From the NCBI RefSeq assembly GCF_013466425.1, contig NZ_CP059165.1, positions 868,001-932,000 of the forward strand: DNA of 64,000 nt, read 5' to 3'. The first letter of the stretch is position 1, and every line of letters starts with the position of its first letter. The stretch comes from Mycobacterium vicinigordonae. Lineage in GTDB: Bacteria > Actinomycetota > Actinomycetes > Mycobacteriales > Mycobacteriaceae. A model generated the notes under the pieces. The model did not search any database. It was not told the origin of the DNA and was given only the letters and a program-made list of their open reading frames with translations. The translations under genes were made by a program, and so were the position numbers. Of this stretch, positions 1-23,989 are shown piece after piece.

Positions 1-392
1 CCGTGTGGATCGCCGAGAACCTGCTGGTCGGCTACCTGCCACTGGATGCGCAGGATCGGTTGCTGCGCGACCTCACCGGCGCGAGCGCCGCCGGCAGCCA
101 GTTCGCCGCTGAACACCTGACCTGGACACAGTTGCAGCTACAAGAGGGACATGCCTTCATCGACCAGTGGCGCCGGCAAGGCTTGGATGTCGACCTGGCC
201 AAACTTACCTACACAGCCGAATTCCCTTCTGTTCCAGATGATCTAGCCGGTCGACGCTGGCAAGTGTCGGACCGCGACATCGTTGAGTTGCTGGCGGCGC
301 TGGGGTTGGCGGGACGCCTGCGGATGCGCCCACGCGATGTCGCGGCCAGCCCGCGTTACGTCACCGGAATGTTGCCCGGCGACACGCGTTAG
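1..392 (+). CDS. SAM-dependent methyltransferase, LCM/PPM1 family, 3' end only
   Basis: The gene enters from outside the window, so only about 130 C-terminal residues are visible. The piece opens with W-I-A-E-N-L-L-V-G-Y-L-P followed by D-A-Q-D-R-L-L, the signature after the last strand of the mycobacterial leucine carboxyl methyltransferase-like family. The complete family member at 48570 carries the matching [17 protein letters not shown] segment. The SAM-binding half is upstream of the window and the substrate is unknown. It ends 11 bases before the GNAT gene on the same strand, so it may belong to the same transcript. Confidence 0.8.
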   Translation, partial: VWIAENLLVGYLPLDAQDRLLRDLTGASAAGSQFAAEHLTWTQLQLQEGHAFIDQWRRQGLDVDLAKLTYTAEFPSVPDDLAGRRWQVSDRDIVELLAALGLAGRLRMRPRDVAASPRYVTGMLPGDTR

Positions 393-403
393 ACAGTTAC
401 GTG

Positions 404-913
404 ATGTCTTCACCGTCTTCGCCCGCGCCCGACTCCGGGGGCCTGCAGTTCGTGTCCGTGACGCTTGACGATCCACGGGCGCAGCCGCTGCTCGAGGCGC
501 TGGCCGACGAATACGCGGACCGCTACGGCGGTGACCGCCGGCTCTATCGGGAATGGATCGTCGGCGGCCCGGATGGCCAGTTCGCGGCCCCGCACGGCGG
601 GATGCTGATCGGCGTGCTGGATGGGGATCCGGTGACCGGCGGTGCGTTCTGCCGATACGACACGCAGACCGCCGAACTCAAACGGGTCTGGACGCACCGC
701 GACCACCGCCGCCGGGGATACGCGAGGGCGCTGCTGGCGACGCTCGAGTCTGAGATTGCGATCTGCGGTTACAAAAGGGTGTACCTCATCACCGGTGACC
801 GCCAACCTGAGGCCGTGGAACTGTACTCCTCCACCGGCTACATCCGGTTGGCTGAACCGCTGCCCGCCCGCGGCCCGGTGTTTCCGATCGCGTTCCTGAA
901 AGCGCTGGCATGA
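404..913 (+). CDS. GNAT family N-acetyltransferase
   Basis: About 169 residues with a complete GNAT fold. The acetyl-CoA-binding motif A is visible as R-R-R-G-Y-A-R-A-L-L around residues 103-112, and the C-terminal motif B as E-A-V-E-L-Y-S-S-T-G-Y. A GTG at 401 directly before the ATG is an alternative start. The stop overlaps the ATG of the next gene as ATGA, so it is translationally coupled to three flavin monooxygenases. In Bacillus, GNAT enzymes coupled to NtaA/MsnO8-type monooxygenases N-acetylate S-modified cysteines before oxidative C-S cleavage; a similar role here is inference. The substrate cannot be read from sequence. Confidence 0.85.
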   Translation: MSSPSSPAPDSGGLQFVSVTLDDPRAQPLLEALADEYADRYGGDRRLYREWIVGGPDGQFAAPHGGMLIGVLDGDPVTGGAFCRYDTQTAELKRVWTHRDHRRRGYARALLATLESEIAICGYKRVYLITGDRQPEAVELYSSTGYIRLAEPLPARGPVFPIAFLKALA

Positions 914-1953
914 CGTTTCACTTAGGCGTCGCACTGGACGGTTATGGCTGGCACACGCAGGCCTGGGAGTTGTGCGACGAGTTGCCCTCGGTGCTCAGCG
1001 GACGCTATTGGACCGACCTGGCGGCCACCGCCGAGCAGGGGCTGCTGGACTTTCTCACCATCGACGACACGCTGATGCCGCAGCCTGGGCGACGGGAGCG
1101 GATCGACCCGAAGCGGCTGGCCGGACGCGGCGACGCGGTGCTCCTCGCTGCCCGAATCGCGCCGGCCACCCGTCACATCGGGCTGATCCCGGTGGCCACG
1201 GTCACCCACACCGAACCGTTTCACATCTCCAAATCGATTGCCACCCTTGACTTTGTGTCACACGGGCGGGCGGGATGGCAGCCGCGGGTCAGCGTCACCA
1301 GTCACGAGGCGGCGCTTTTTGGTCGCCGCACCATCGATCCCGCCGAGTTGTTCGACGAAGCCCGTGACTACGTCGAGGTGGTGCGCAGGCTCTGGCACAG
1401 CTGGGAGGACGACGCGGTGATCCGCGACGTCTCCGCTGGGCGCTACCTCGACGTCGACAAGGTGCATTACATCGACTTCACCGGAAAGTTCTTCTCGGTC
1501 AAGGGGCCATCGATCACGCCACGCCCGCCGCAGGGTCAGCCGATTGTCGCCGTGCTGGCCCACGCCTTGCCGGTGTACGAATTCGCCTCCGAAACCGCCG
1601 ATCTCGTGTTCGTCACGCCGACGGACGCCTCGATAGGCGAGATCCTGAACCAAGTGCGGGGCGTCTCGGAAAGCCTGAAGATCTTCGCCGACATTGTGGT
1701 TACGTTCCACGGGCAGGACGACTTTCGCTCCGACACGTGGGTGTGGTCGGGTAATGCTGCGGAGTTGGTCGACCTGCTGCTGGGCTGGCAACGCCTGGGA
1801 ATCGCGGGAGCGCGGCTGCGTCCCGCTGTACACGCCATTGACCTCCCGGTGATAGTCGACGAGGTGGTGCCGCTGCTGCAGCGCGCCGGGGATTTCCGCG
1901 ACAGCTACCGGGATGGCGAGACGTTGCGGGAAAGGCTCGGTATCACAGCATGA
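910..1953 (+). CDS. LLM-class flavin-dependent oxidoreductase, NtaA-like
   Basis: 347 residues with the luciferase-like TIM-barrel pattern. The NtaA/SnaA/DmoA subfamily signature [13 protein letters not shown] lies near residue 110-122. It is shorter than usual for this subfamily (about 430-450 residues) and shorter than the relative at 3062, with less sequence between the GRAGW motif and the C-terminus. It starts by ATGA overlap with the GNAT gene and ends by ATGA overlap with the next LLM gene. Such enzymes normally take reduced FMN from a separate reductase; none is encoded nearby. F420 use is a less likely alternative given the NtaA signature. Confidence 0.85.
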
Positions 1954-3065
1954 TTCCGCTGTCGATCCTGGATCTCGCACCGGTCAGCGCCGGCAGCGAC
2001 CCGGCCACCGCGCTGCGCAACACCATCGAGCTGGCCCAGCACGCCGAACGCTGGGGCTATCGCCGGTACTGGGTCGCCGAACATCACTTCGTCGCGGTCG
2101 CCAGCGCGGCGCCGGCGGTGCTGATCGGACAGATTGCGGCCAGTACCAAGCGGATTCAGGTGGGTGCCGCGGCGGTCCAGTTGGGGTACACGACGGCCGT
2201 CGCGGTGGTCGAGAGCTTCGGCATGCTGGATGCGTTCTACCCCGGCCGGATCGATCTGGGGATAGGCCGGTCCGGGCAGCGGCGTTCCGAGCAGTCTAAA
2301 CCGAAGCCGCCCCGCGAGCCCAGGCCACCACGGCAGTGGCACGAAGTCGACGGGGTGGTCGTCCCGACACCGTTCGATGTGCGGGGACTGCTCGACCTCG
2401 AGCGGCTGCAGGCCACCATGAAGATCCTGCAGCAGCCGGAAGCGGTATCGCCGGACTTCGCCGAGCAGGTCGGCGACATCATCGCATTGCTCGAAGGTAA
2501 CTACCGGGTAGGCGAATTCGACGTGCATGCGGTACCCGGCGAAGGATCCGGCATGCGGCCATGGATCTTCGGCAGCACCCGGGGACAGAGCGCGCGGGTA
2601 GCCGGTGCGCTGGGCTTGCCGTTTGTGGCGAGCTACCACATCACACCGGCCACCGCCCTGGAAGCAATCGAGGCCTACCGCGACACGTTCCAGCCGTCGG
2701 CGGCCCTGGCCGAGCCCTACGTGGTGGTCTCGGCCGACATTGTGGTAGCCGAGGACACCGCTACCGCCCAGCACCTGGCCGCCGGCTATGGCCAATGGGT
2801 GTACTCGATCCGCACCGGTGTCGGAGCGATGCCCTACCCGGCCCCCGACGACTTCCCGCCGCTGGCCGAGGAGCAGTACGAGCTGGTAAAGGACCGTCTG
2901 GCAACACAATTCGTCGGCAACCCGGACGAGGTCGCCGACCGGCTCACCGCGCTGGCGCGCGTTTCGGGGGCCGACGAACTTGTGGTCACCTCGGTCACCC
3001 ACCGCCACCAGGACCGGCTGCGCTCACATGAACTCATTGCCCGCCGGTGGGGGCTGAATTTATGA
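1950..3065 (+). CDS. LLM-class flavin-dependent oxidoreductase, MsnO8-like
   Basis: 371 residues, luciferase-like monooxygenase fold. The segment W-V-A-E-H-H-F near residue 48 and the [12 protein letters not shown] motif near residue 100 fit the MsnO8-like group, which includes Bacillus YtmO/CmoO. It lies between two NtaA-type enzymes and is joined to both by ATGA overlaps, so the three are made together. In the Bacillus alkylcysteine pathway a YtmO-like and a YtnJ-like monooxygenase likewise share one operon with a GNAT. Substrate is inferred from context only. The ligand could alternatively be another sulfur or nitrogen compound. Confidence 0.85.
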
Positions 3066-4378
3066 GCCGCAAACCAATTCACCTGGCCGCGCATTTTCCC
3101 GGCGTCAACAACACCACCGTGTGGACCGACCCGACGTCCGGCAGCCAGATCGAGTTCGAGTCCTTCGTGCACCTGGCGCAGACCGCCGAGCGTGGCTTAT
3201 TCGACTTCTTCTTCCTGGCCGAGGGACTCCGGCTGCGCGAGCACCGCGGACGCATCTACGACCTGGACGTGGTGGGCCGCCCGGACACCTTCACCGTGCT
3301 GGCCGCGCTGGCCGCCGTCACCGACCGGATCGGACTGACCGGCACCATCAACACCACCTTCAACGAACCCTTCGAGGTTGCAAGGCAATTCGCCACCCTG
3401 GACCACCTGTCCGAGGGCCGGGCCGGGTGGAACATCGTCACCTCTTCGGATGCCTTCACCGGGGCAAACTTTCGTCGCGGCGGTTTCCTGGCCCACGCCG
3501 ATCGGTACGCTCGGGCCGAAGAATTCGTCGAGGTGGCGCGCAGGTTCTGGGACAGCTGGGCCCCGGACGCCGTGGTGCGCGAGAATGGCGTCTATGTCGA
3601 CCCCGCCGGAATCGGCAGGGTCGAGTACACCGGTACTCATTTCAAGGTTGACGGTTTCGCGACACTGCCGGCCGGCCCGCAGGGTCATCCGGTGCTTTTG
3701 CAAGCCGGCGATTCCGACGAAGGCCGCAACTTCGGTGCCCGGCATGCCGACGCATTGTTCACCCTGCACGGCTCGCTGGAAGACGGGCAGCGGTATTACG
3801 CCGACGTGAAGGCGCGGGCCCGGCGGTTGGGCCGAGACCCCAACCAGCTCAAGGTTTTTCCGGCGGCGACGTTCGTCCTCGGAGACACCGCCGACGAGGC
3901 TCGCGACAAGGCGCGCCACGTTCGGCGTCAGCAGGTGAGCGGTCCCACCGCAATCGCCATGCTGGAGCAGATTTGGGGCCGCGAACTCTCCGATTACGAC
4001 CCGGATGGTCCGTTGCCGGACTTCGATCCGGTCGTCGACAGCGACATCACCCAGGGCCGGGTCCGGCATGGCGACCCCGTCGCGGTGGCGCGACGCTTCC
4101 GGGAACGTGCCGAAGCGCAGAATTTGTCTATCCGGGAAGTGGTCATCGCGATGACCAGCCGGGAGCAATTCGTCGGCACCGCAACGCATGTCGCCGACGA
4201 GATTGACCGCTATGTGCAGGCCGACGCGTGCGACGGGTTTATCCTGGTGCCGCACCTCACCCCGCATGGACTTGACGAGTTCGTCGACAAGGTGGTGCCG
4301 CTGTTGCAGGAGCGTGGCGTCTACCGCACCGAGTACCCCGGGCGCATGCTGAGGGAGAATCTGGGTCTGGCCGGTTAG
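3062..4378 (+). CDS. NtaA/SnaA/DmoA family FMN-dependent monooxygenase
   Basis: 438 residues, full length for the nitrilotriacetate monooxygenase component A family, beginning [14 protein letters not shown]. The signature T-L-D-H-L-S-E-G-R-A-G-W-N is intact near residue 120. The ATG at 3062 was chosen because it overlaps the previous stop as ATGA, like the other junctions; a GTG at 3047 is possible. Family members oxidise amines or thioethers with reduced FMN supplied by a partner reductase, and some cleave C-S or C-N bonds. It is the last gene of the coupled run and its stop overlaps the convergent MBL gene by 4 bases. Confidence 0.9.
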   Translation: MSRKPIHLAAHFPGVNNTTVWTDPTSGSQIEFESFVHLAQTAERGLFDFFFLAEGLRLREHRGRIYDLDVVGRPDTFTVLAALAAVTDRIGLTGTINTTFNEPFEVARQFATLDHLSEGRAGWNIVTSSDAFTGANFRRGGFLAHADRYARAEEFVEVARRFWDSWAPDAVVRENGVYVDPAGIGRVEYTGTHFKVDGFATLPAGPQGHPVLLQAGDSDEGRNFGARHADALFTLHGSLEDGQRYYADVKARARRLGRDPNQLKVFPAATFVLGDTADEARDKARHVRRQQVSGPTAIAMLEQIWGRELSDYDPDGPLPDFDPVVDSDITQGRVRHGDPVAVARRFRERAEAQNLSIREVVIAMTSREQFVGTATHVADEIDRYVQADACDGFILVPHLTPHGLDEFVDKVVPLLQERGVYRTEYPGRMLRENLGLAG

Positions 4379-5127
4379 ATCGCCCCCGCTTTGCGCAGCG
4401 CGGTGTCGGTGGCCTCGCGGATCGGGCCGCGCCACAACGGTCCGTGGCCGGGTGCCAGGATCTCGGATTCCACCTGCGCCAGCACCGACAGGGTCCGGAT
4501 GCACTCTTGCTGGCTGTAGCTGAAGATCGCGGGCAGCAGCTGCGGCCCGTCGCGGACGATCAACGGATGTCCGGTGATCAGGGCGTCTCCGCTGACGAGC
4601 ACGCCATCGACGAGGTACGAGCAGTGGCCGTTGGTATGACCGGGGCTGAACACCGGCTTCGGGCGGCCGGGCAGCCCCGCGGCGACGTCGTCGGTCAGCG
4701 GTTGCGCGGTCGGGATGCCGGTGCGGTTCAGGCCGCCGCTGCGCACCACGTGCAGGGTCCACAGCGCCCAGCGCGGACGCCACAGCCGCAGCGCCAATGC
4801 GGGGATCGAGACTTGCTCGAGGTAGTCACGTTTGACGTGGCCGACCTCGTCGGCGTGGCTGTACACGGGTGTGCCGTACTCGGCGGCGAACCAGATTGCG
4901 GTGCCCAGGTGGTCGATATGGGCATGGGTGAGCAGGATGGCGCGCACGTCGCCGGGGCCGTAACCCAGCTTGCTTAGTGAGGTCAGCACCTCATCGCGGT
5001 CACCGGGATAGCCGGCGTCGATCAACATCACGCCGGTGTCGTCGTGCACGAGCGTCCAGTTGACCGCGGGGCCTTGCGCGAGATGAACCTTGTCGGTGAT
5101 TTGCACCAGCTCGGTCTGCTCAGTCAT
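4375..5127 (-). CDS. MBL-fold metallo-hydrolase (Rv0406c-like)
   Basis: 250 residues from the ATG at 5127. The metal-binding motif T-H-A-H-I-D-H-L-G is present around residues 70-78, with later His ligands in the S-P-G-H-T-N-G-H and G-H-P segments, so the di-zinc site looks complete. The family hydrolyses esters, thioesters or lactones, and the exact substrate is unknown. The gene is divergent from fgd1 with only 29 bases between start codons, the same arrangement as Rv0406c/fgd1 in M. tuberculosis. Upstream in-frame starts would run into fgd1, which is why the shorter start was chosen. Confidence 0.85.
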   Translation of the reverse strand: MTEQTELVQITDKVHLAQGPAVNWTLVHDDTGVMLIDAGYPGDRDEVLTSLSKLGYGPGDVRAILLTHAHIDHLGTAIWFAAEYGTPVYSHADEVGHVKRDYLEQVSIPALALRLWRPRWALWTLHVVRSGGLNRTGIPTAQPLTDDVAAGLPGRPKPVFSPGHTNGHCSYLVDGVLVSGDALITGHPLIVRDGPQLLPAIFSYSQQECIRTLSVLAQVESEILAPGHGPLWRGPIREATDTALRKAGAI

Positions 5128-5156
5128 GAGCAATAGCGTAGGAGTAGAAAAGACAC

Positions 5157-6167
5157 GTGGCTGAACTGAAACTCGGATACAAGGCGTCCGCCGAACAATT
5201 CGCACCTCGTGAACTCGTCGAACTCGCAGTCCTCGCCGAAGCGCACGGTATGAACAGCGCTACCGTCAGCGACCACTTTCAGCCATGGCGGCACGAGGGC
5301 GGCCACGCCCCGTTCTCGCTGGCCTGGATGACCGCGGTGGGCGAGCGCACCAAGCGGCTGCAGTTGGGCACCTCGGTGCTCACCCCCACGTTCCGGTACA
5401 ACCCGGCCGTCATCGCGCAGGCTTTCGCCACTATGGGCTGTCTGTACCCCGGCCGCGTATTCCTGGGAGTTGGCACCGGAGAGGCGCTCAACGAGATCGC
5501 CACCGGTTACCAGGGCTCTTGGCCGGAGTTCAAGGAGCGGTTTGCCCGGCTACGCGAGTCGGTGCGGCTGATGCGTGAGCTCTGGCGTGGCGACCGCGTC
5601 GACTTCGACGGCGAGTACTACCGGCTCAAGGGTGCCTCGATTTACGACGTACCAGAGGGCGGTGTGCCGATCTACATCGCCGCCGGCGGTCCCGCGGTGG
5701 CCAAGTACGCCGGTCGCGCCGGCGACGGCTTCATCTGCACCTCGGGCAAGGGCGAGGAGCTTTACACCGACAAGCTGATGCCGGCCGTGCGGGAGGGCGC
5801 CGCTGCCAATGACCGCAATATCGACGACATCGACAAGATGATCGAGATCAAGATCTCCTACGACACCGACCCTGATCTGGCACTAGAGAACACCCGATTC
5901 TGGGCGCCGCTGTCGCTGAGTGCCGAACAGAAGCACAGCATCGACGACCCGATCGAGATGGAGAAAGCCGCCGACGCGCTGCCTATCGAGCAGATCGCCA
6001 AGCGCTGGATCGTGGCCTCCGACCCCGACGAAGCCGTCGAAAAAGTGGGCCAGTACGTGCAGTGGGGCCTAAACCACCTGGTGTTCCATGCACCCGGACA
6101 CGACCAGCGACGGTTCCTGGAACTGTTCGAGAGGGACCTCGAGCCCAGGTTGCGCAAACTTGGTTGA
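5157..6167 (+). CDS. fgd1: F420-dependent glucose-6-phosphate dehydrogenase
   Basis: 336 residues, the exact length of the M. tuberculosis enzyme. It oxidises glucose-6-phosphate to 6-phosphogluconolactone and reduces cofactor F420, supplying F420H2 for deazaflavin reductases, including those that activate nitroimidazole prodrugs. Catalytic residues known from the M. tuberculosis structure are in register: Asp39, His40, Trp44 and Glu109. The start is GTG, with AGGAG about 12 bases upstream. The stop overlaps the likely TTG start of pta. The nearby LLM monooxygenases share the fold but are separate genes on the other side of the MBL hydrolase. Confidence 0.97.
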
Positions 6168-22483: not shown

Positions 22484-23989
22484 ATGGCGAACAAATCAAA
22501 GACGATTGCTACTGCCCTGGCCGTATGGGTCGTTGTGGCCCTGGTCGCTCTCCTCGCGGGTTGCGGGCGCTGTTCGAACGAAGCGCGGCCCGCCGCCAAC
22601 AGCACCGCCGCGACAGAGTTCGCCACCATGATTCGCGGCAAGGTCACCACCGACGCGATGATGGCGCACCTGACTAAATTGCAGGAGATCGCCAACGCCA
22701 ACAATGGCACCCGCGCGGTGGGCACTCCCGGTTACGACGCCAGTGTGGACTATGTGGTGGAAACGCTGCACAAGAACGGCTTTGATGTGCAAACGCCCGA
22801 ATTTTCGGCACGGGTGTTCCACGCCGAGAAGGGTTCGTTGACCGTCGGCGACCTGACCACCGAGGCGCGCGCGCTGGAGTACAGTCGCAGCGCTCCCGAC
22901 GGCGTAACTGGGCCGTTGCTGTTCGCGCCCGAGGGAGACAGCCCCGGCTGCACGCCTGGCGACTATGACCGGCTGCCGGTACAGGGCGCGGTGGTGGTGG
23001 TCGGCCGCGGAGCCTGCCAGTTTGCGCAGAAGGAGGACGCCGCTGCCCAGCGCGGCGCGGTCGCTCTGATCGTCGTCGACAATGTCGACGAGCAGTCGAT
23101 GGGCGGCACGCTGGGGGCCAACACCGACGTTAAGATCCCGGTGGTCAGTGTCACCAGATCGGTCGGCTATCAATTGCGTTCCAAGTCCGGTCCGGCGACG
23201 GTCAAGCTGAACGCGGAGACCAAGAGTTTCAAGGCCCGCAACGTGATTGCCCAGACCAAGACGGGATCGGCGAGTGATGTCGTGATGGCCGGAGCGCACC
23301 TGGACAGCGTCCCGGAGGGACCGGGCATCAACGATAACGGTTCCGGGGTTGCGGCAGTATTGGAAACCGCTGTGCAGCTTGGAAATTCACCTCAGGTCCA
23401 CAATGCGGTGCGGTTCGCGTTCTGGGGCGCAGAGGAACTGGGGCTGATCGGCTCCCGCAACTACGTCGAGTCGCTGGATCTGGAGGGGCTCAAGAACATC
23501 GCGCTGTACCTGAACTTCGACATGCTGGCTTCGCCCAACCCTGGTTACTTCACCTACGACGGCGACCAATCGCTGCCACTGGACCAACGTGGCCAGCCGG
23601 TGGTGCCCGAGGGCTCGGCCGGTATCGAGCGGATGCTGGTCAACTATCTGAAGCTGTCCGGTAAGACCGCGCAGGACACTTCGTTCGACGGCCGTTCCGA
23701 CTACGACGGGTTCACCCTGGCCGGTATCCCGTCGGGCGGGCTGTTCGCTGGCGCGGAGGCCAAGAAATCCGACGAGCAGGCCAAGCTGTGGGGTGGAACG
23801 GCCAACGAGCCATTCGACCCCAACTATCACCAGAAGGGTGACACCCTCGAACACATCGACCGCACCGCGCTGGGCATCCAGGGCGGCGGCGTCGCCTACG
23901 CCGTGGCGCTGTACGCGCAGGACATCGGCGGACGAAATGGGGTTCCGGCCATGGCAGACCGAACCCGTCACGTACTCGTGAAACCATGA
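22484..23989 (+). CDS. lpqL: lipoprotein M28-family aminopeptidase LpqL
   Basis: 501 residues (H37Rv LpqL about 500). Lipobox L-L-A-G-C places the lipidated Cys at residue 27. A PA domain inserted around residues 140-240 precedes the peptidase core. All M28 zinc ligands are visible: A-H-L-D-S, G-I-N-D-N-G-S-G (bridging Asp), G-A-E-E-L-G, N-F-D-M-L and the last His in N-Y-H-Q-K-G-D. It should be an active cell-envelope aminopeptidase. The stop overlaps the next ATG (ATGA), where a second copy of the gene follows. Confidence 0.93.
   Translation: MANKSKTIATALAVWVVVALVALLAGCGRCSNEARPAANSTAATEFATMIRGKVTTDAMMAHLTKLQEIANANNGTRAVGTPGYDASVDYVVETLHKNGFDVQTPEFSARVFHAEKGSLTVGDLTTEARALEYSRSAPDGVTGPLLFAPEGDSPGCTPGDYDRLPVQGAVVVVGRGACQFAQKEDAAAQRGAVALIVVDNVDEQSMGGTLGANTDVKIPVVSVTRSVGYQLRSKSGPATVKLNAETKSFKARNVIAQTKTGSASDVVMAGAHLDSVPEGPGINDNGSGVAAVLETAVQLGNSPQVHNAVRFAFWGAEELGLIGSRNYVESLDLEGLKNIALYLNFDMLASPNPGYFTYDGDQSLPLDQRGQPVVPEGSAGIERMLVNYLKLSGKTAQDTSFDGRSDYDGFTLAGIPSGGLFAGAEAKKSDEQAKLWGGTANEPFDPNYHQKGDTLEHIDRTALGIQGGGVAYAVALYAQDIGGRNGVPAMADRTRHVLVKP

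Follow-up and report, generated by a model that had tools for sequence, protein, structure and literature searches.

A four-gene operon of Mycobacterium vicinigordonae, at positions 404-4378 of the 64,000-nucleotide stretch analysed here (the window; C1:868001-932000 of a 6.27 Mb single-contig genome), probably salvages cysteine from S-substituted (N-acetyl-)cysteines. It encodes a GNAT N-acetyltransferase, a short NtaA-type protein (NtaA1), an MsnO8-type luciferase-like monooxygenase and a longer NtaA-type monooxygenase (NtaA2). The pathway is probably a variant of CmoO/CmoJ-type salvage with a heteromeric CmoJ-like enzyme, in which NtaA1 would be a partner subunit devoid of flavin mononucleotide (FMN). 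What we infer, from comparisons of sequences and gene neighbourhoods, is each reaction step and its substrate, the heterodimer, and that NtaA1 does not bind FMN. Loci and genomes are designated below by L and G numbers.

The four genes and their families

All four genes lie on the forward strand, and each overlaps the next by an ATGA stop/start sequence. The GNAT gene (404-913, 169 amino acids (aa); PF00583, E 1.1e-13) shares positions 910-913 with NtaA1 (910-1953, 347 aa), which shares 1950-1953 with the MsnO8-type gene (1950-3065, 371 aa), which in turn shares 3062-3065 with NtaA2 (3062-4378, 438 aa). A first-pass annotation had described this set with its three overlaps, and the open reading frames (ORFs), the family matches and a direct reading of the overlaps bear it out.

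NtaA2 scored 437.1 bits with TIGR03860, over the cut-off. Its best match among solved structures was CmoJ/YtnJ of Bacillus subtilis (308.6 bits), followed by 3sdo as the next different protein (266.4 bits), BdsA (261.1 bits) and DmoA (204.5 bits). By its family, its best solved match and its FMN-site residues (see below), NtaA2 has the features of a CmoJ-type FMN monooxygenase of the NtaA/DmoA type, and is predicted to be the subunit that cleaves the C-S bond.

The MsnO8-type protein also exceeded the cut-off of its family (TIGR03558, 295.5 bits), and is a candidate CmoO-like S-oxygenase. An insertion of about 40 residues (window 2274-2408) falls between TIGR03558 positions 106 and 111, and alignments with relatives in the genus run through it. 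The family is large, with 446 matching plasmid records. A Bacillus CmoO reference was sought among them, and three Firmicute and one Klebsiella records of the 446 held no ytm-like operon; in Priestia megaterium, an MsnO8-like gene adjoins an NtaA-type gene.

Downstream of NtaA2 come a metallo-beta-lactamase-fold (MBL) gene and then fgd1. F420 dependence, as the adjoining fgd1 might suggest, is not favoured, because genomes that lack the set at this locus still have fgd1 there and because TIGR03860 and TIGR03558 are families that we take to be of the FMN type.

NtaA1, a modelled NtaA barrel without the residues of the flavin site

As the first-pass annotation had remarked, NtaA1 is short. Its relatives elsewhere, of about 386-428 aa, are likewise shorter than NtaA2. 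With TIGR03860 it scored 219.3 bits (cut-off 279.7), the best stretch covering model positions 2-239 of 422. Its AlphaFold2 model is an NtaA barrel (mean pLDDT, the predicted local distance difference test, 84.2).

Six FMN-site positions, taken mostly from docking and mutagenesis of NtfO2 (PMC8027225; this and the other papers cited are used in excerpt), were compared in the two proteins. None of the six residues was kept in 132 of 152 distinct NtaA1 sequences and one in the remaining 20, against all six in 148 and five in 3 of 151 NtaA2 sequences. In the alignments, the QAGxS flavin-phosphate motif of NtaA2 (QAGDS, residues 214-218, window 3701-3715) faces VLAHA in NtaA1 (residues 215-219, window 1552-1566). 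The replaced pocket positions are themselves conserved, T replacing F56 in 147 of the 152 NtaA1 sequences and E or D replacing A58 in 149, and NtaA1 is therefore under selection.

In 155 of 162 cases an NtaA2 gene was found at most 2.5 kb from NtaA1, always on the same strand. This pairing spans more than one gene order, several actinobacterial genera and Rhizobium NXC24. Such a pattern suggests that NtaA1 is a pseudo-flavoenzyme, which has kept the NtaA barrel, has apparently lost FMN binding and is an obligate partner of NtaA2, most likely in a heterodimer, where it may shape or cover the NtaA2 active site. The first-pass annotation had counted two NtaA-type monooxygenases; because NtaA1 has lost the FMN site, the two are probably not separate enzymes. 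That NtaA1 is instead an independent enzyme with a repurposed pocket is unlikely, and would affect this part of the proposal only. The conservation of its replaced positions would suit such an enzyme, whereas its pairing with NtaA2 through multiple gene orders and genera, and the precedent of the NtfO1-NtfO2 heterodimer, argue for a subunit.

Conservation of the set in the genus

Presence of the genes was scored in a genus sample of 98 genomes, at E ≤ 1e-100 for MsnO8, 1e-45 for NtaA1, 1e-110 for NtaA2 and 1e-25 for the GNAT. These thresholds were chosen after inspection of the score distribution, and weaker relatives exist below them. NtaA1, MsnO8 and NtaA2 were distributed in an all-or-none manner, all three in 52 genomes and none in 46. 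NtaA1 of G061, cut by a contig end with its tail visible in L066, was counted as present. Three of the 52 set-bearing genomes (G019, G022 and G073) have a paralogous version only, with 48-51% identity in MsnO8. The match in G015, a draft genome, is split over two frames (L075 3635-4745), owing to a break or a sequencing error, and was also counted as present.

MsnO8 relatives of at least 58% identity were found in 49 of the 98 genomes, the source genome included. All four genes stand together in 27 of these 49 loci. Among the others, the GNAT was not seen in 3 (two of them at contig starts), GNAT and MsnO8 stand without the pair in 12 and MsnO8 alone in 2, the NtaA1 and NtaA2 genes are partly lost in one (L057), and the remaining 4 (L060, L066, L067 and L071) are not at fgd1. 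In all 14 genomes with an MsnO8 locus devoid of NtaA1-NtaA2, the pair was found elsewhere in the genome (L189-L201 and L130); the three flavoenzyme-type proteins therefore go together even when unlinked. This degree of conservation excludes a chance association of the four genes.

Decay of the set is seen in G089, a 3.2 Mb genome, where broken remnants of MsnO8 and NtaA2 adjoin MBL-fgd1 (L088 8133-9689). At the fgd1 locus of G027, a diverged NtaA1 accompanies a partial NtaA2 (L057 7915-10482), and another pair lies at G027:C34 (L202). In a phylum-wide search, 29 of 396 genomes gave an NtaA1 match (E ≤ 1e-30), partly to ordinary NtaA proteins at 33-39% identity. We found no description of the set in mycobacteria in the open-licence PMC literature, a search that does not extend to subscription papers.

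Probable addition of the set to cysteine operons

In five loci (L060, L067, L071, L216 of Mycolicibacterium vulneris and L276), NtaA1-MsnO8-NtaA2 stands behind cysK-cysE, with a thioredoxin gene in between in L060, L067 and L071. They are all the loci in which cysK-cysE and the set share a contig, and all five carry a leaderless short ORF that ends in a run of cysteines, its ATG preceded at 6-7 bases by a TATAGT box. When 3.97 Mb, some stretches counted twice, were scanned blindly for leaderless polycysteine ORFs, 7 matches emerged, namely these five and two others. In M. smegmatis, such ORFs act as attenuators that respond to cysteine (PMC9031893, citing Canestrari et al. 2020).

The same kind of operon exists without the set. 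In the source genome, the cysK-cysE operon has its own leaderless polycysteine ORF (L291, from 3003) and no set. Loci with this type of cysK had the ORF in 10 of 10 cases (L291-L300), against 0 of 2 for the other cysK type (L301 and L302); in L300 (G089), the box is poor, the ORF starts with GTG and the gene upstream is broken. In L296 and L297, which are devoid of the set, the gene immediately after thioredoxin is c49, whose place in L060, L067 and L071 is downstream of NtaA2. Because cysK-cysE with its polycysteine ORF also occurs without the set, it is simplest to suppose that an existing cysteine operon of this kind took up the set. A dedicated second cysK behind the polycysteine ORFs was considered and rejected, as the same copy is present, at 81-100% identity, in 33 of the 98 genomes, the source included. 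Thioredoxin genes lie beside cysE also where the set is absent (L291, L296, L297 and others).

At the window locus, one short cysteine-containing frame inside NtaA2 (4188-4352) and three more in the 20 kb preceding the window (L009) were examined as possible leaders, and none had a leaderless box. No leaderless polycysteine ORF was found in the window or in those 20 kb.

Transporters and other neighbours

The wider neighbourhood was examined in named loci, the best 80 of at least 596 matches (64 non-mycobacterial and 16 mycobacterial), whose neighbour frequencies are given here as such. A polar amino-acid (PAAT) transporter was present in 20 of the 64 non-mycobacterial loci, an oligopeptide-type transporter in 18 and either of them in 34; a flavin reductase was found in 16, SsuD in 10, a GST_C protein in 18 and cysK or metX/metY in 3. 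The corresponding numbers for the 16 mycobacterial loci were 1 for a transporter, 0 for flavin reductase and 2 for cysK. The first-pass annotation had noted that no flavin reductase, amidohydrolase or transporter is nearby, and a family search of the seven ORFs at 3-6164 indeed revealed no flavin reductase, M20 amidohydrolase or importer. Such partners do stand beside relatives of the set outside mycobacteria, but hardly ever in the mycobacterial named loci.

Three mycobacteria with genomes of 4.6-5.1 Mb (L076-L078) have a permease, an ATPase and a solute-binding protein directly upstream of the GNAT, heading the operon; L078 has one extra ORF between GNAT and NtaA1. The best NCBIfam models for the L076 proteins were those for cystine (PRK15100, TcyN and PRK11260), all below the curated cut-offs, so that "cystine-type" is used here for the PAAT family and not for a proven substrate. 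The L076 proteins had no match in L010. Some 4 kb upstream, the opposite strand carries an ATP-binding cassette (ABC) permease/ATPase pair (L009 12817-15992), assigned by reading and without a family search.

Plasmid relatives were surveyed in 10 of 28 matching records. PAAT genes and a GNAT accompany the set in 3, PAAT genes only in 1, a GNAT and another ABC importer in 1, and a GNAT and ssuE in 1. In Streptomyces NBC_01558, the set adjoins homoserine O-acetyltransferase, sulfhydrylase and ssuE; in Tsukamurella, the gene order is the mycobacterial one, with an amino-acid ABC transporter nearby.

A fourth luciferase-like monooxygenase joins NtaA1-NtaA2-MsnO8 in 31 of the 64 non-mycobacterial named loci (for instance L159 11587-12738 and L123 5734-6825); its closest NCBIfam models, of the CE1758/Atu2307 types, were below cut-off. 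One GST_C protein had a single solved match, the glutathione S-transferase of PDB 3ppu, at 46 bits and at the 1e-10 limit. Putative leader peptides are annotated near four Streptomyces clusters (L159 8748-8909, L167 8754-8864, L160 4048-4113 and L165 7509-7634). All share a (V/I)DL(L/Q)RV stretch near the end, and 0 of 4 are polycysteine.

A loose tie between the GNAT and the set

The GNAT is present in 78 of the 98 genomes. It occurs together with the three-gene set in 46, without it in 32, and is lacking in 6 that have the set and in 14 that do not (Fisher p 0.025). Those 32 and 6 genomes argue against an indispensable GNAT, and the GNAT is less tightly tied to the flavoenzymes than the first-pass annotation supposed. 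Eighteen of 20 fetched GNAT loci without an adjoining set still lie by MBL-fgd1 (L169-L188 except L175 and L178), and no PAAT permease was found in these 20 loci. Of the 80 named loci, 29 had a GNAT of some kind in the flanking sequence examined (9 of 16 mycobacterial, 20 of 64 other). GNATs of the window type share the cluster in L076-L078, in S. clavuligerus (L165) and in Rhizobium NXC24 (L164), and GNATs of another type are found in three annotated Streptomyces plasmid clusters. Solved structures did not identify the GNAT further, the matches to YsnE and two others being weak.

A proposed pathway and its alternatives

In B. subtilis, N-acetyl-S-alkylcysteine is first converted to its sulfoxide by CmoO. 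CmoJ then splits this sulfoxide, probably by an N5-hydroperoxy flavin, into an aldehyde and N-acetylcysteine sulfenic acid, after which come reduction and deacetylation (PMC10863075). In the mycobacterial pathway, the GNAT or another source would supply an N-acetylated S-conjugate, whose sulfur the MsnO8-type enzyme would oxidise to the sulfoxide, like CmoO. NtaA2, with FMNH2 and O2 and with NtaA1 as its obligate FMN-less partner, most likely in a heterodimer, would then break the C-S bond of the sulfoxide, like CmoJ, yielding N-acetylcysteine sulfenic acid and an aldehyde. The sulfenic acid would be reduced by thiols or by thioredoxin, a step that the thioredoxin gene beside cysE would suit, and a deacetylase encoded elsewhere would free cysteine. 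Three N-acetylcysteine deacetylases serve B. subtilis (PMC12757645). In the window, a weak Peptidase_M20 match (23291-23737, 30 bits) is a possible, unlinked candidate.

The S-alkylcysteine salvage imagined in the first-pass annotation thus stands as regards cysteine and organosulfur metabolism, given the CmoJ match, the cystine-type transporters and the polycysteine-cysK-cysE operons. It needs revision as regards the GNAT, which is loosely tied, and NtaA1, which has lost the FMN site and is probably not a separate monooxygenase.

Several observations weigh against the proposed salvage. The GNAT follows the set loosely, and no deacetylase is linked to it, the nearest of 8 matches in a whole-genome PF01546 search lying about 19 kb away. 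The MsnO8-type protein is likened to CmoO by its family and its gene context. A single event may lie behind all five cysK-linked loci, and the neighbour frequencies of the named loci stand without a random-locus baseline. Both transporter types are lacking in 30 of the 64 non-mycobacterial and 15 of the 16 mycobacterial named loci, and 4 of the 10 plasmid loci have neither GNAT nor ABC importer. In L133, L244 and L281, the last at a contig end, no NtaA2 was found beside NtaA1. SsuD and other luciferase-like monooxygenases near the relatives make a wider organosulfur role possible.

The alternative that survives best, which we nevertheless hold to be doubtful, is a compatible variant of this pathway. 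The flavoenzymes would act on mercapturic acids that are already acetylated, and the GNAT would be an unrelated neighbour. Mca, which releases N-acetylcysteine S-conjugates from mycothiol S-conjugates (PMC4267739), is present in the source genome (503.4 bits, over cut-off). Since Mca makes such conjugates, a dispensable GNAT would be explained, in keeping with the genomes that have one without the other and with the set-less GNAT loci that remain by fgd1. On the other hand, GNATs of the window type cluster with the set in L076-L078, S. clavuligerus and Rhizobium NXC24, other GNATs do so on Streptomyces plasmids, and the literature describes the release or export of mercapturic acids (PMC4267739).

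It is distinctly improbable that the set removes sulfur from other organosulfur compounds (thioethers, sulfones or sulfonates, in the manner of DszA, SfnG, DmoA or SsuD) and not from S-substituted cysteines. NtaA2 also matches BdsA and DmoA, SsuD-type genes adjoin the paralogous cluster (L081, L083 and L084) and SsuD recurs in the non-mycobacterial named loci. However, amino-acid-type and peptide-type transporters and GNATs are the commoner neighbours, and CmoJ is the top solved match of NtaA2 by sequence. That the set modifies a non-sulfur metabolite, be it in secondary metabolism, like NtfO1-NtfO2, or in the breakdown of chelators, like NtaA/EmoA, is very unlikely. In its favour, the nearest short and long NtaA-type pair found, NtfO1-NtfO2, is a polyketide hydroxylase, and two Rhodococcus plasmid pairs have no sulfur genes among their annotated neighbours. 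Against it stands the linkage to polycysteine-cysK-cysE, to cystine-type transporters and, in Streptomyces NBC_01558, to the sulfur genes listed above.

If a conserved set for salvage from S-substituted cysteines is the right explanation, many mycobacteria would recover the sulfur of mycothiol-derived mercapturic acids, and the NtaA family would gain an FMN-less partner subunit common in actinobacteria, for which the sole precedent found is in polyketide biosynthesis. Going further, we tentatively raise the idea that the mycothiol detoxification cycle is closed in this way in mycobacteria and in other organisms that make mycothiol. From the mercapturic acids released by Mca, an MsnO8-type sulfoxidase would recover cysteine together with a CmoJ-like Pummerer monooxygenase, a heterodimer whose second subunit has lost its flavin, and some lineages would have taken the set into their polycysteine cysK-cysE operon.

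The left border of the operon

A gene related to TIGR00027-type S-adenosylmethionine methyltransferases, below the model cut-off, precedes the GNAT on the same strand. It begins in the preceding stretch (L009 19478-19999), its 3' part occupies positions 3-392, and it ends 11 bases before the GNAT start. Related genes (c16) were seen in 11 loci, and this gene may be a fifth member of the operon. The corresponding place in H37Rv is presumably that of pks6.

Comparison with known systems

For the NtaA1-NtaA2 pair, the nearest likeness is with NtfO1-NtfO2, StmO1-StmO2 and NgnO1-NgnO2 (PDB 7e36), where a short NtaA-type protein stands beside a longer, FMN-binding one and the coding regions of stmO1 and stmO2 overlap; they differ in that NtfO1-NtfO2 hydroxylates a polyketide (PMC8027225). 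By alignment, NtaA1-NtaA2 pairs a short NtaA-type protein that has lost the FMN site with a longer one in which the site is kept. NtaA1 is a distant relative of NtfO1, which scored 148.5 bits with the NtaA1 profile. Bacterial luciferase also joins one catalytic and one non-catalytic luciferase-like subunit, LuxA and LuxB, in a different subfamily and with a different chemistry.

The scm (yxe) system of B. subtilis handles S-(2-succino)cysteine by acetylation, cleavage by an FMN-dependent monooxygenase and deacetylation (PMC12757645). Likened here by description only, it differs in having one monooxygenase step (ScmK/YxeK). We know of no MsnO8-type or NtaA1-type partners in it.

The closest system as a whole is ytm/ytn (CmoO-CmoJ) of B. 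subtilis, which likewise has a GNAT alongside monooxygenases of the MsnO8 and NtaA types, contains the best solved match of NtaA2, and resembles L076-L078 in its cystine-type ABC transporter. The mycobacterial set differs from it by the extra NtaA1 without FMN site, paired with NtaA2, by the lack of a linked deacetylase and by the loose coupling of the GNAT, and its relatives differ further in the five loci where the set stands behind a polycysteine-controlled cysK-cysE operon.

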